From an uncultured Altererythrobacter sp. (GTDB lineage: Bacteria; Pseudomonadota; Alphaproteobacteria; Sphingomonadales; Sphingomonadaceae), in assembly GCA_913056125.1 (NCBI GenBank), contig CAJXNC010000001.1, positions 1-64,000 on the forward strand: DNA of 64,000 nt, written 5' to 3'. Made by a program: the position numbers and the translations under genes. Each line of letters opens with the position of its first letter. Within the stretch, counting starts at the first letter, position 1. The notes under the pieces were generated by a model. That model was not told where the DNA came from. It worked only from the letters and a program-made list of their open reading frames with translations, and did not search any database. Below are positions 43,833-51,081 of the stretch, piece after piece.

Positions 43833-45470
43833 ATGCATGACCATTTCATGAAGATTGCGTGGGGGAACGCAGGTTTGGCCAATCCGGGTGCCGTCATCTA
43901 CCGCTGCGAGCAGCTTGAGCTCGACCCGACGCGCTTCGAATTGCGCGATGAAGGTGAGCGTGTGCATGTCGAGCCGCAAGTCCTCTCCCTGCTCCTCCTT
44001 CTCGTCCAGAACCCCGATCGCATGGTCAGCAAGGACGAGCTGGTCGAGAAGATCTGGGACGGACGCTTCATTTCCGATTCCGCCATTGCCGCGCGGATGA
44101 AGGCAGCGCGCAAGGCCATCGGTGACGATGGCAAGGCGCAAAGGCTGATCCGCACGATTCATGGCAAGGGCTTCCGCTTCATCGGACAGGTGAGCATCGA
44201 GGCAACTGGCCTTCCTGGCGCCGCTGTGCAGTCGGCGCCCCAACCTGCTGACCTGTCACCCATGCCCGTGCCCGACTTGCGGCAGGGACGCCCATCCATC
44301 GCCGTCCTGCCCTTCCGCCTGGTAGGCGAGTCCGGTCCGCACGACATTATCGCCGATGCCCTGCCCGAGGAGTTGATCGGTGACCTCGCCCGGCTGCGCT
44401 GGCTGTTCGTGATCGCGCGCGGATCGAGCTTCCGCTTTCGTGGACCCGATGCGGATGGCCTCACTGCCGGGCGTGCGCTCGGCGTGCGCTATTGCCTGAC
44501 CGGTTCGGTCGAGCGCAGCGGGCAGGAAGTGGTGGTCAATGTCACGTTGGTCGACGCGGGCGATGGCGGCGTGGTGTGGAGCGAGCGCTTTCGCGGCGGG
44601 TTGGGCGAGCTGGCGCAAATGCGCGCCGAGATCGCCACATCCACGCTCAACAATATCGCAGTCGAAATCCCGGCTAATGAGGTGCGGCTGGCACGCGGGA
44701 GGCCGACCACCGAACTCGACAGCTGGTCCGCCTTCCATCTCGGCCTCGATCACATGTACCGCTTCAACAAGGCAGACAATGCGCAGGCGGCGCAGCTGTT
44801 CAGCCATGCGCTGGAGCGCGACCCGTACTTTGCACGCGCCATGGGCGGGCTCTCCTTCACCCACTTCCAGGATGCCTTCCTGCAATATGGCGGCGATGCC
44901 CGGGCCGAGATCGAAATGGCGCGCGAGCTGGCCCGGCGCGCGGTCGAATGCGATCGGCTCGACCCCTTCGCCCATTTCAACCTCGGTCGCTCGTCCTGGC
45001 TCGACGGCAGGCTGGAGGATTCAATCGACTGGTTCGACCGGGCGACGGCGATCAGCCCCAGCTTCGCGCAAGGCGTCTATAATCGCGGCATTGTCGGCGT
45101 GCTGGCGGGCAAGGGCGAGAAAGGCGACCGCGACCTTGCAACCGCGATCGAGCTGAGCCCGCTCGATCCCATGTCCTATGCCATGCATTCCTCGCGCGCG
45201 CTGGCGCAGGTGCAATTGGGCAACCCGGAGCGGGCGGCGGATTTGGGCGCAAAGGCTGCGCTGATGCCCGGCGCGCACAAGCATATCGACCTCGTCGCGG
45301 CGATCTGCGCCCACCTTGCCGGCAAGAAGGAGGAGGCCGCTTCGTGGCTGGCGCGGATGCGAGGGCGCGATCCCGAAATGAGCGCCGAGAAGTTCTTCCG
45401 CTCCTTCCCCTATGCGCCCGGTCCTGCGCGAGAGCCGATCGAACGCGCCTTGCGCGAGCTCGGTCTCTAA
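43833..45470 (+). CDS. Winged-helix regulator with TPR domain (CadC/HilA-like)
   Basis: A 545 aa soluble regulator. Residues ~20-110 form an OmpR-type winged helix (FELRDEGERVHVEPQVLSLL ... DELVEKIWDGRFISDSAIAARMKAARKAIGDDG ... IRTIHGKGFRF). A FlgO-like segment follows (RPSIAVLPFRLVG ... LIGDLARLRWLFVIARGSSF ... GVRYCLTGSVERSG), then TPR repeats to the end. There is no transmembrane helix, unlike CadC. Start is ATG 43833 or 43848. Target genes unknown; divergent from the tautomerase. Confidence 0.85.
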   Translation: MHDHFMKIAWGNAGLANPGAVIYRCEQLELDPTRFELRDEGERVHVEPQVLSLLLLLVQNPDRMVSKDELVEKIWDGRFISDSAIAARMKAARKAIGDDGKAQRLIRTIHGKGFRFIGQVSIEATGLPGAAVQSAPQPADLSPMPVPDLRQGRPSIAVLPFRLVGESGPHDIIADALPEELIGDLARLRWLFVIARGSSFRFRGPDADGLTAGRALGVRYCLTGSVERSGQEVVVNVTLVDAGDGGVVWSERFRGGLGELAQMRAEIATSTLNNIAVEIPANEVRLARGRPTTELDSWSAFHLGLDHMYRFNKADNAQAAQLFSHALERDPYFARAMGGLSFTHFQDAFLQYGGDARAEIEMARELARRAVECDRLDPFAHFNLGRSSWLDGRLEDSIDWFDRATAISPSFAQGVYNRGIVGVLAGKGEKGDRDLATAIELSPLDPMSYAMHSSRALAQVQLGNPERAADLGAKAALMPGAHKHIDLVAAICAHLAGKKEEAASWLARMRGRDPEMSAEKFFRSFPYAPGPAREPIERALRELGL

Positions 45471-46099
45471 TCCTCGCCGGCAATCCGGGTAAGCATTTCT
45501 TCCGCCGCATAGGGCGCGATCAGTTTCGCCGCACGGTCCCACCCGGCATGAAGCCAAGTGTCCTGCGCAGCGCGGTCCGCGGGCAGGATCACCGGCATGG
45601 TCTCGCGGCCGATATTGCGCAGGGCCTCATTGGCCTTGCAGGTGAGCAGGGCGAAGGTCGGCACCTCGCTATCCTTCCACACGCCGGCAAAGGCGAAGAT
45701 GCGCTGGTCCGCGCAGGCGAAGTAATGCCGGTTGCGCCGTCCCTCGACATCGATCCCCTGGCCCCATTCCATGAAGCTGGTCGCGGGTACGAGGCAGCGG
45801 AACTCGCTATTGCGCAAATTTCCGATCCAGAAGGGACTGTCGACATTGCGCACCGAGGTTACACCGCGCGTCGGATCTCCGGCAGAAGGCGGTGGGGGCA
45901 CGCCCCAGATGCGCGGCACCATGCGGTGCTGTCCGCGCGTGGTCCTCGCCCCGGCGATGAATTCGCGCCCTGCAGTGATGATTGGTGCGAAATTGCCCGG
46001 TGCGACATAGCCGCCCGCCCATGGGTCGTTCCCCGCCCAGCAGTGGAAAGCGCGCGTGATCGCGGCGGCATCGGCATCGAGGCGGTAGAGCTGGGTCAT
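45467..46099 (-). CDS. SRAP (YedK/HMCES)-family protein lacking Cys2
   Basis: A 210 aa protein of the SOS response-associated peptidase family, which normally links its Cys2 to abasic sites in single-stranded DNA. Recognisable: WAGGYVAPGNFAPIITAG, MVPRIWGVPPP, NVDSPFW, FRCLVPATSFMEWGQ (active-site Glu) and LLTCKANEALRNIGRETMPVIL (with the catalytic-type His position changed from RMPVIL context). The N-terminus is MTQLYRL instead of MCGRY/MCNLY, so the nucleophile is missing. Confidence 0.85.
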   Translation of the reverse strand: MTQLYRLDADAAAITRAFHCWAGNDPWAGGYVAPGNFAPIITAGREFIAGARTTRGQHRMVPRIWGVPPPPSAGDPTRGVTSVRNVDSPFWIGNLRNSEFRCLVPATSFMEWGQGIDVEGRRNRHYFACADQRIFAFAGVWKDSEVPTFALLTCKANEALRNIGRETMPVILPADRAAQDTWLHAGWDRAAKLIAPYAAEEMLTRIAGED

Positions 46100-47359: not shown

Positions 47360-48592
47360 ATGAGTTTGGAAGCGAACACTCTTTCAGGCGATATGGCGGT
47401 GCGCACGCTGTTCGACAGCGCGCCGCCTCTGGCCGATGTGCTGGCCGATACGGGCGATCGCAATTGCGCGCTTGCAGCGCGTTTCGAGGCGAAATCGGCG
47501 CATCGAGATTATTTGCTGCGCGCCCTGCGCCTGTCCGCGCAGCTCGGCCCGCAGCATGCGCGGCTGCGCTTCTGGGTCGATGGCGCGAAAACCGGTGATG
47601 CAGAGACGCTCAAGCTCGTGCGTTCGGTGTGGGAGGAAGACAGCTTCCCCTCCTGGACAGGGCGAGAATGGGGCGACAAGGAGATATCCATCGTCATCGG
47701 CCAGCTCGAGGCGATTGACGAGGAGCTGGCGATTGCGGCGGCGCGCTATATCCGCCCCCACCTGCTGGCTATCGAACAACCGCTGGCGATTGCCCTTGGC
47801 GTGTTTGCCGGCCGCTATGCCTATTCCGCCTTCGGTATCCATTGCGACGTGCATCTCGAACGCGTGCTGCATTTCCATGCCGGGCCGGGCGCCAAGACCC
47901 TGCTCGTCTGGCCCGACAAGAACGACGTGCAGGGCCTGATCGGCAAATTTCCCGATGACGAGGCGCTGGAGACGGCGCAGTCCCTCAATGCCGAGGCGGG
48001 TGACATGCTGTCGGTTGTCTCGCCCACGCATCATATCGGCTCCGCCCCTGAACCCTGCACAAATCTCTGCCTGCTCTTCACCCGCTTCAAACCGATGGAG
48101 ATGCTGGTCGATCTGGCCCGCGAACTGAACTGGTGGCGGCGCGACGGGCTCGATAGCGAGACCAACTTTGCCGTGGATCCTGTCGCCTACCTGCCCGAGG
48201 CATGGCGACAGCAAAGCATGGCGCGCGTGATGGAAGAGGCCATGTGGCTGAAGCGGCTGGCATCGCTCTCCAATGGCGGGCTGGCTGCCTCGCCGCTACC
48301 CCGCAAATGGATCCCTGCGCGCGGCCAGCTGGTGCGGCTGGCTGCACCCGAAGTCTTCCCGCTGCTTTTTGCCGAGAGCTTTGGCCAGACCGTGATGGCA
48401 GCGCGCGGAAAGCTGCGTCCGCTGCCTGACCACAAGGGGCTGCTGGCTTGGTGCGAGGCACTGGCGGCAGGCGAGACCATGGAGGCCGACGAGCTGCTGA
48501 CCGGCCCCTTTTCGCGCGACGGCACGGCGCAGGCGGGCTTCGTCCTGCAATGGCTGCACCAGAGCGGCGCTATCCGCTTCAATCGGGCCTAG
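47360..48592 (+). CDS. Putative JmjC/cupin-like Fe(II) oxygenase
   Basis: A 410 aa protein (ATG 47360; ATG 47339 in frame possible). I do not recognise the exact family. Residues ~100-230 look like a JmjC/cupin fold: WGDKEISIVIGQLEAID, then the 2-His-1-carboxylate candidate HCD (His161, Asp163) in FGIHCDVHLERVLHFHAGPG, a LLVWP strand and a distal THHIGS (His224/225). The C-terminal ~150 aa may be a winged-helix domain as in bacterial ROXA-type proteins. Starts 4 nt after the monooxygenase gene. Confidence 0.6.
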   Translation: MSLEANTLSGDMAVRTLFDSAPPLADVLADTGDRNCALAARFEAKSAHRDYLLRALRLSAQLGPQHARLRFWVDGAKTGDAETLKLVRSVWEEDSFPSWTGREWGDKEISIVIGQLEAIDEELAIAAARYIRPHLLAIEQPLAIALGVFAGRYAYSAFGIHCDVHLERVLHFHAGPGAKTLLVWPDKNDVQGLIGKFPDDEALETAQSLNAEAGDMLSVVSPTHHIGSAPEPCTNLCLLFTRFKPMEMLVDLARELNWWRRDGLDSETNFAVDPVAYLPEAWRQQSMARVMEEAMWLKRLASLSNGGLAASPLPRKWIPARGQLVRLAAPEVFPLLFAESFGQTVMAARGKLRPLPDHKGLLAWCEALAAGETMEADELLTGPFSRDGTAQAGFVLQWLHQSGAIRFNRA

Positions 48593-48633
48593 CGCTGCTC
48601 CTCGACAAGAGCTCCGCTGGGGCCTAGGTTGCG

Positions 48634-48780
48634 ACTCATCCCCGGGGAGCCAGCTACTGGCTGAGAGGTGTGGGTATGCTCCACACGACCCGTCGAACCT
48701 GAACCCGTTAGCACGGGCGGAGGGAAGGGTGGCTCGGCAATGCGGCGCCGCCCGTTCTCCCGCCAATCGGAGAGGAGCGT
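48634..48780 (+). promoter_or_regulatory. TPP (THI-box) riboswitch and expression platform
   Basis: The aptamer core is unmistakable: GGGGAGCC (48644-48651), GGCTGAGAGG (48659-48668), ACCCGTCGAACCTGA (48688-48702) and GCGGAGGGA (48717-48725). Thiamine pyrophosphate binding would shut off the downstream genes. After the aptamer, TCTCC (48756-48760) can pair with GGAGA (48769-48773), masking the ribosome site of the membrane protein gene that follows; this platform is inferred. Confidence 0.93.
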
Positions 48781-48784
48781 GCAC

Positions 48785-49183
48785 ATGGCCAATATGGATG
48801 ACATCCCCGCCTGGATTGCCCTGTTTACGGGGCTTTACGCGCTCGGCGCCGCAATCGGAGAATTGCGCTCGCCCGGGAGCTGGGCCGCCATGCTCGACGG
48901 GTTCGAGCGGAACGAGGCTTTGCGCTTCCTCACCGGCATCGTGTTGCTGGCGCTGGGCGCGGCGATCTACCTCGTCAATCCGTGGAATCCTGCCGACTGG
49001 CTCTCGATCTGCGTGACCGTGCTGGGCGGCGGCATGGCGCTGGAAGGTTTCATCATGCTCGCCTGGGGCCGCGCCTTCATGCATTTCGCCAGCGCATTGC
49101 TCGGCGCGGTCAACCGCGTCTGGGCGCTGATCGCTGCCGGCATGGGCATTGTGCTGATCTGCGTCGCCCTGCTCCGTTTCTGA
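48785..49183 (+). CDS. Membrane protein, first gene of the TPP-riboswitch transcript
   Basis: A 132 aa protein with four predicted helices (IPAWIALFTGLYALGAAIGE, FLTGIVLLALGAAIYL, LSICVTVLGGGMALEGFIML, VWALIAAGMGIVLICVALL). GGAGAGGAG at 48769-48777 serves its ATG. It lies between the riboswitch and thiC (35 nt gap), so it is under TPP control. Not a recognised thiamine transporter family; a role in thiamine or precursor transport is only suggested by position. Confidence 0.78.
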   Translation: MANMDDIPAWIALFTGLYALGAAIGELRSPGSWAAMLDGFERNEALRFLTGIVLLALGAAIYLVNPWNPADWLSICVTVLGGGMALEGFIMLAWGRAFMHFASALLGAVNRVWALIAAGMGIVLICVALLRF

Positions 49184-49191
49184 CCCGATAG

Positions 49192-51081
<1,890 letters not shown>

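Follow-up and report, generated by a model that had tools for sequence, protein, structure and literature searches.

In the 64,000-nucleotide stretch of DNA analysed here (the window), a small gene encoding a putative membrane protein, which we denote M, is the first gene under a TPP riboswitch and lies immediately ahead of thiC. Across 23 genera, M lies between the vitamin B1 sensor and thiC, a slot in which no other gene was seen in any genome checked, and it is therefore a strong candidate for a hitherto overlooked component of thiamine synthesis or traffic. The reading that we place first, although as a whole we hold it with slightly less than even confidence, is that M belongs to the TPP regulon, is made with ThiC when TPP is low and is most likely a membrane accessory of ThiC-dependent HMP synthesis. 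Vitamin B1 probably shuts down M and ThiC alike.

Organization of the locus

The features of the locus, all on the forward strand, are the following.

48633-48742, + strand: TPP riboswitch aptamer (THI element, RF00059; cmscan, 63.4 bits)
48756-48760, + strand: TCTCC, the proposed anti-Shine-Dalgarno strand, which pairs with 48769-48773 in the fold of 48743-48790 (sequence)
48769-48777, + strand: GGAGAGGAG, the ribosome-binding site of M, partly covered by the proposed pairing (sequence; helices covering the Shine-Dalgarno site in relatives)
48785-49183, + strand: M, gene of a 132-aa membrane protein (ATG 48785, stop 49183; translation)
49184-49218, + strand: junction between M and thiC, 35 nt, with a weak Shine-Dalgarno-like AAGAAAG (by eye)
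49219-51081, + strand: thiC, phosphomethylpyrimidine synthase, 620 aa (PF01964 and NF006763)

The aptamer exceeds the gathering threshold of RF00059 (63.4 against 54.3 bits in cmscan), covers positions 1-105 of the 105 in the model, and is the only TPP match listed in a search of the genome. An earlier note, made from the nucleotide letters, had recognised this aptamer and had placed the membrane-protein gene first under it, ahead of thiC; the stretch that it named (48634-49183) starts one base off the Rfam match and has an exact end. Both identifications stand; the observation as a whole is confirmed as real, and the interpretation attached to it is partly supported.

The ATG of M follows the end of the aptamer by 42 nt, and this start position is identical in close homologues. 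The downstream gene matches PF01964 (ThiC_Rad_SAM) in Pfam with an E value of 7.7e-185 and the ThiC equivalog NF006763 in NCBIfam with 1034.9 bits, compared to a cut-off of 650. A weak fold is predicted for the junction between the two genes, which appears short enough for translational coupling; in several relatives, the stop codon of M abuts an AAGGA before thiC. Directly upstream of the riboswitch, the window encodes a 400-aa protein (47390-48592) that matches no Pfam family at E values of 1 or below and, by eye, looks cupin/JmjC-like.

Exclusivity of the slot between aptamer and thiC

In the genomes checked, the strongest evidence for more than a chance neighbourhood is the exclusivity of this slot. 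Among the 41 M-bearing genomes that were new in the order sample, the slot holds M and at most 196 further bases in 23 and is empty, with a gap of at most 130 bases, in 18. The gap is also empty in each of 80 M-less genomes checked from the family (at most 117 bases), and all 13 M-less genomes checked from the window's own genus have the aptamer immediately 5' of thiC and a leader of similar kind. Across these 134 genomes (41 M-bearing, 80 + 13 M-less), M is the only gene seen in the slot.

Here, M-less means without a match at E ≤0.001. Some copies may be missed in the family sample, in which no more than the 10 top-ranked first-look candidates were scored per genome; the emptiness of the slot is unaffected. 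The 80 M-less genomes were drawn from the best-scoring thiC matches among those listed. In the window's genus, 15 genomes had no M match, and 13 of these were examined (G004, 87% complete, and G028, 70% complete, were left out).

Distribution and placement of M homologues

Matches to M were detected in 29 of 99 relatives, in 48 of 296 genomes sampled across the order, and in 119 of 397 genomes sampled across the family. All listed matches of the relatives and order samples fall within the window's own GTDB family, and the relatives sample yielded no match among its 39 genomes that belong to a different family of the order. In a separate scan, relatives were named in several genera, among others Aurantiacibacter, Alteraurantiacibacter, Altererythrobacter, Croceicoccus and Croceibacterium. 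The occurrence of M in named, cultured strains (of Aurantiacibacter, Croceicoccus and others) makes a deletion test feasible; in Altererythrobacter sp. KTW20L (L132) and Alteraurantiacibacter aestuarii JCM 16339 (L130), M adjoins thiC.

The pooled family set comprises 151 matches from 144 genomes and 39 genera. M lies directly under the aptamer in 65 of the 151 matches, distributed over 23 of the 39 genera, and is the only gene seen in the slot in the genomes checked for it; the placement between riboswitch and thiC that had been envisaged on the basis of the window is thus conserved. Another 70 matches are located 5' of the aptamer on the same strand, at distances up to 12.5 kb (16 within 400 bases, 54 further), and are therefore outside the riboswitch transcript. 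Eight are unlinked to the aptamer, and eight are unplaceable, that is, they lie on a contig other than that of the aptamer or in a genome without an aptamer match. The scattering away from thi genes and riboswitches that the earlier note named as the observation that would speak against it is accordingly confined to the eight unlinked copies among 151. Six of these lie on the opposite strand; the copy in G173, a genome of 3 contigs, is on a contig different from that of the aptamer; and a second copy in G374 is 16.6 kb away. Two matches in which the end of the aptamer overlaps the start of M (G195 and G167) were counted as directly under the aptamer, which gives A 33 and B 6 in the 74-match set, and TPP searches over more than 40 genomes were run with stricter filters. 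In all 28 of the 28 first loci, thiC is found 3' of M on the same strand. One locus, L024, carries two M copies flanking the aptamer (M1, 1216-1596; TPP, 1671-1781; M2, 1856-2203; then thiC), possibly a snapshot of the slot changing hands.

On a tree of 73 rows, the position of M directly under the aptamer is gained or lost no fewer than 11 times, with changes also inside the window's genus; the tree, built from 132 columns, is poorly resolved (30 of 70 inner branches open), and the minimum number of changes alone was used. Its rows are 70 of the 74 matches (all but G322, G279 and, in G224 and G319, the copy on the aptamer side) and three class-level rows. The surroundings of five unlinked copies, read by eye, show two adjoining adhesin-like genes, two adjoining a peptidase-like gene, and one unclear. 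Such turnover, the association of copies elsewhere with other genes, and the similar looser linkage of an unrelated SRAP-type gene described below would all fit a passenger role, in which M is a small membrane protein whose function is unrelated and whose gene, situated near thiC, has repeatedly moved in and out of the regulated slot. We rank this explanation second and consider it possible, if rather unlikely, given that no gene besides M was found in the slot in the 134 genomes checked, that an operon of the form TPP-thiC-M exists in another order, and that the M protein evolves under constraint (median dN/dS 0.25).

Linkage controls

Co-occurrence of M and thiC was dropped as evidence because thiC is present in 383 of the 397 family genomes anyway. 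Compared to this near-ubiquity, M is found in only 119 of the 397, and therefore ThiC does not generally need M. Three M-bearing genomes have no thiC match, namely G495 (73% complete), G536 (95%) and G534 (100%, about 50 contigs). In the last of these (L176, L177), rated as 100% complete, an M copy and a TPP aptamer are present. In a metagenome-derived contig (L049, 4699-6168), thiC is split: residues 1-239 and residues 403-616 match separately, with about 100 bases between the two parts, which points to either a broken gene or an assembly fault.

As a control for neighbourhood, 41 loci were examined for an unrelated SRAP-type gene. The sequence retrieved around thiC contained it in 26 of them (22 of the 28 M-bearing loci and 4 of the 13 M-less ones); these counts are lower bounds, because the loci differ in length. 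In the window, a SRAP/YedK-like gene, assigned by eye, is located at 45467-46099 on the minus strand. The control led us to discount the looser linkage of M (a position up to 12.5 kb 5' of the aptamer) as functional evidence: because an unrelated gene shows such linkage too, neighbourhood alone proves little.

Occurrence in another alphaproteobacterial order

A class-wide sample of 289 genomes contained 14 with an M match, two (G000 and G008) in the window's own family and 12 outside it. Two of these 12 matches come from a family of another order (f66) and have M directly 3' of thiC on the same strand. Of four genomes searched in that order, three carry M, and all three read TPP-thiC-M on one strand, with the aptamer 5' of thiC; in one of these genomes, a thiD-like kinase gene adjoins M on the opposite strand. 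Among the remaining ten class-level matches, no thiC was found near M in the five surroundings read (L158, L165 and L166 were left out). In the f66 family, a CitMHS/TrkA-C family transporter gene (L159, 7787-9637) is divergent from the TPP-thiC-M operon, and a similar-looking 613-aa protein occupies the matching position in L160 (by eye).

Predicted expression platform

The earlier note had proposed that TCTCC pairs with GGAGA and thereby hides the ribosome-binding site of M. The positions are right, and the pairs are present in the minimum-energy fold of 48743-48790, but this fold is no more stable than those of shuffled sequences (z -0.18), and a separate count of helices onto the ribosome site gave a different best one for the window's leader, CGTTCT with GGAGCG, which is unremarkable (P 0.15). 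When the whole 168-nt leader is folded, the partner of the TCTCC stretch becomes the 3' strand of the aptamer. Such alternative pairing of the pyrimidine stretch, here a prediction from the folds, is what one would expect of a switch that exposes or conceals the ribosome site.

Support for a platform that covers the ribosome site comes mainly from the leaders of relatives. In 12 of 39 leaders, the window's included, the best helix onto the ribosome site is reached by at most 10% of the shuffles, compared to about four leaders expected; the leaders are mutually related, and the shuffles preserve base composition alone. In 31 of the 39 leaders, the minimum-energy fold pairs four or more of the six Shine-Dalgarno bases, a count without shuffle control. 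The set consists of 26 leaders before M and 13 before thiC; L100, L107, L113 and the second G056 copy, in which the start codon or the aptamer end was unsure, were left out, as was L083, and the starts in L115 and L117 were assigned by eye. The leaders before M and before thiC are similar, and therefore the first gene, be it M or thiC, seems to be served by a platform of similar kind. The switch may have passed from thiC to M or in the opposite direction.

Sequence, fold and selection of the M protein

The M protein of the window passes no Pfam or NCBIfam cut-off. Its AlphaFold2 model (pLDDT 90.6, pTM 0.76, from 30 alignment rows) contains helices at residues 4-28, 32-42, 44-64, 72-93, 95-108 and 110-131. 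The four-helix architecture claimed previously is right for the membrane-spanning helices, to which the model adds two short ones. The predicted fold consists of two units of the form transmembrane-amphipathic-transmembrane (long-short-long helix), the pattern to be expected of a doubled DUF2065-type unit, and M is presumably located in the membrane.

No carrier family was matched by M in Pfam or NCBIfam, either with single sequences or with whole alignments, beyond weak scattered hits. In a Foldseek comparison with solved structures, none of 136 matches reached E ≤0.001 (best E 0.43). The best VIA-align Z score was 5.7, with three rows, TMEM45A and two entries of succinate-acetate permease, a range that may mean a common arrangement only. 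The assertion that M fits no known transporter family thus agrees with the family searches, and the structure searches likewise recognised no carrier-like fold.

Across 91 pairs from 14 close sequences including that of the window, the median dN/dS is 0.25, and therefore the M protein itself is under purifying selection. The columns invariant in the wider family are glycines, G16, G51 and G58 across 28 rows and four glycines across 16 rows; in a set of 30 closer relatives, the invariant positions also include R28, N65 and D71.

Relationship to DUF2065

No match to DUF2065 (PF09838) was found at E up to 1 in the M protein of the window, and none was found in G000. Of ten members of the M family tested, three divergent, riboswitch-linked ones pass the DUF2065 cut-off of 24.3 bits (31.9, 42.4 and 32.3 bits), over residues of about 11-64, that is, in the N-terminal half. 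In four genomes searched from one genus (g64), the M copy is the sole DUF2065 match and lies above the cut-off. These similarities suggest that the M family is distantly related to DUF2065. The earlier note had also named a close match to a general DUF of unrelated function as speaking against its reading; of this, the part observed is that some divergent members match a general DUF. The term DUF2065 did not occur in the literature searched, and we found no function for it.

Whether the doubling apparent in the model is reflected in the sequence depends on the protein considered. When the N- and C-terminal halves are compared in register, both f66 proteins give P 0.001, and 0.01 and 0.007 with class-preserving shuffles; the window's M gives P 0.33. 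Under the stricter shuffle, 13 of 16 rows have P >0.05, and the third row with a low value, the second copy in L024, aligns out of register. The signals in L157 (P 0.045) and L161 (P 0.039) disappear under the stricter shuffle. With hhalign, the two halves were aligned out of register, with a probability of 19%. An ungapped profile test was uninformative: the top score was a match inside the N-terminal half that is kept by the shuffle and was reached by all 300 shuffles. At the sequence level, doubling thus appears to be supported only in the two f66 proteins and not in the M protein of the window.

Discussion

The results can be cast into a simple model. At low TPP, M, a small inner-membrane protein, would be made together with ThiC. 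When TPP binds, the pyrimidine stretch 3' of the aptamer would be freed and would cover the ribosome site of M, such that translation of M stops, as the sequence and the folds suggest; when TPP is absent, the same stretch could pair with the 3' strand of the aptamer, which is a predicted alternative fold only. Because it follows M by 35 nt and has a weak ribosome site of its own, thiC would probably be switched via the shared transcript, by translational coupling.

Under this model, M would act as an accessory of ThiC-dependent pyrimidine (HMP) synthesis; it might, for instance, anchor ThiC or its reductant to the membrane or deal with a by-product. Gene position alone points to this accessory role, and the choice among ThiC, the reductant and the by-product is a guess. 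If true, the accessory role would be the first functional lead for DUF2065-type membrane units. A bolder version, which we consider improbable, would make M the first representative of a new kind of ThiC partner in the membrane: a protein built of tandem DUF2065-type units that brings ThiC, an oxygen-sensitive radical-SAM enzyme, or the electron supply of ThiC to the membrane, in amounts set jointly with those of ThiC by the shared riboswitch.

Third in our order of readings, after the accessory and a protein with an unrelated job, comes the proposal that M is an importer or exporter of HMP, thiazole or thiamine. Such a carrier would act as an oligomer, because one chain with four spanning helices is small for a carrier. 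M is placed under a TPP aptamer, is predicted to be a polytopic membrane protein, and has R28, N65 and D71 invariant among its 30 closer relatives, all of which would suit a carrier. Moreover, TPP-regulated transporters are common: in a TPP-regulon survey of 24 lineages, transporters account, on average, for 30% of the TPP-regulated genes (PMC3766115). However, R28, N65 and D71 are not invariant in the wider family, where only glycines are, and no carrier family or fold was recognised, although a missing match does not exclude one. Because of these two findings, we favour an accessory over a carrier, which we regard as unlikely. The 70 copies outside the riboswitch transcript also argue against a carrier, as does the second TPP aptamer present elsewhere in some relatives (L178, 3903-4012; L179, 2234-2343; L180, 2625-2734). 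In the one clear case, L180, this aptamer is followed by a TonB-receptor-like gene and then by a kinase-like gene, the latter found in L178 and L179 as well (by eye). By its gene content, this is likely a thiamine uptake locus, and uptake therefore has other candidates there.

The idea that the M reading frame is chiefly a translated leader coupling the riboswitch to thiC can claim that M carries the platform, that the window's thiC, which starts 35 nt after the M stop, has a weak ribosome site, and that the stop of M and the thiC ribosome site almost overlap in several relatives, but we consider it very improbable: M-less relatives have the aptamer straight before thiC, and therefore no leader is needed, and the protein-level constraint, the confident predicted fold and the copies outside the transcript ask for a protein function.

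An accessory of ThiC-dependent HMP synthesis thus remains the reading that we place first. The alphaproteobacterial groups in the TPP-regulon survey are Caulobacterales, Rhodobacterales and Rhizobiales, not Sphingomonadales (PMC3766115), and this may be why M has gone unremarked so far. We found no paper on the M gene in the literature searched, a body that leaves most subscription journals outside its scope.

Comparison with known systems

A TPP-riboswitch leader precedes thiC in Escherichia coli. The locus in the window shares with such leaders the class of aptamer, thiC downstream and, as far as the predicted folds go, a platform that may cover a ribosome site; it differs from them in that a membrane-protein gene lies between the platform and thiC. 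The TPP regulons also include transporters of thiamine or its precursors, such as ThiT, PnuT, ThiV and ThiXYZ. M is likewise a membrane protein under a TPP aptamer but, unlike these transporters, is without a family match in Pfam or NCBIfam, and no solved fold was recognised for it. DUF2065, the family of E. coli YjeT, is described by a model of 56 positions, the length of the long-short-long helix unit in the model of M; however, DUF2065 is a single unit, whereas M, with about 132 residues, is predicted to comprise two such units.
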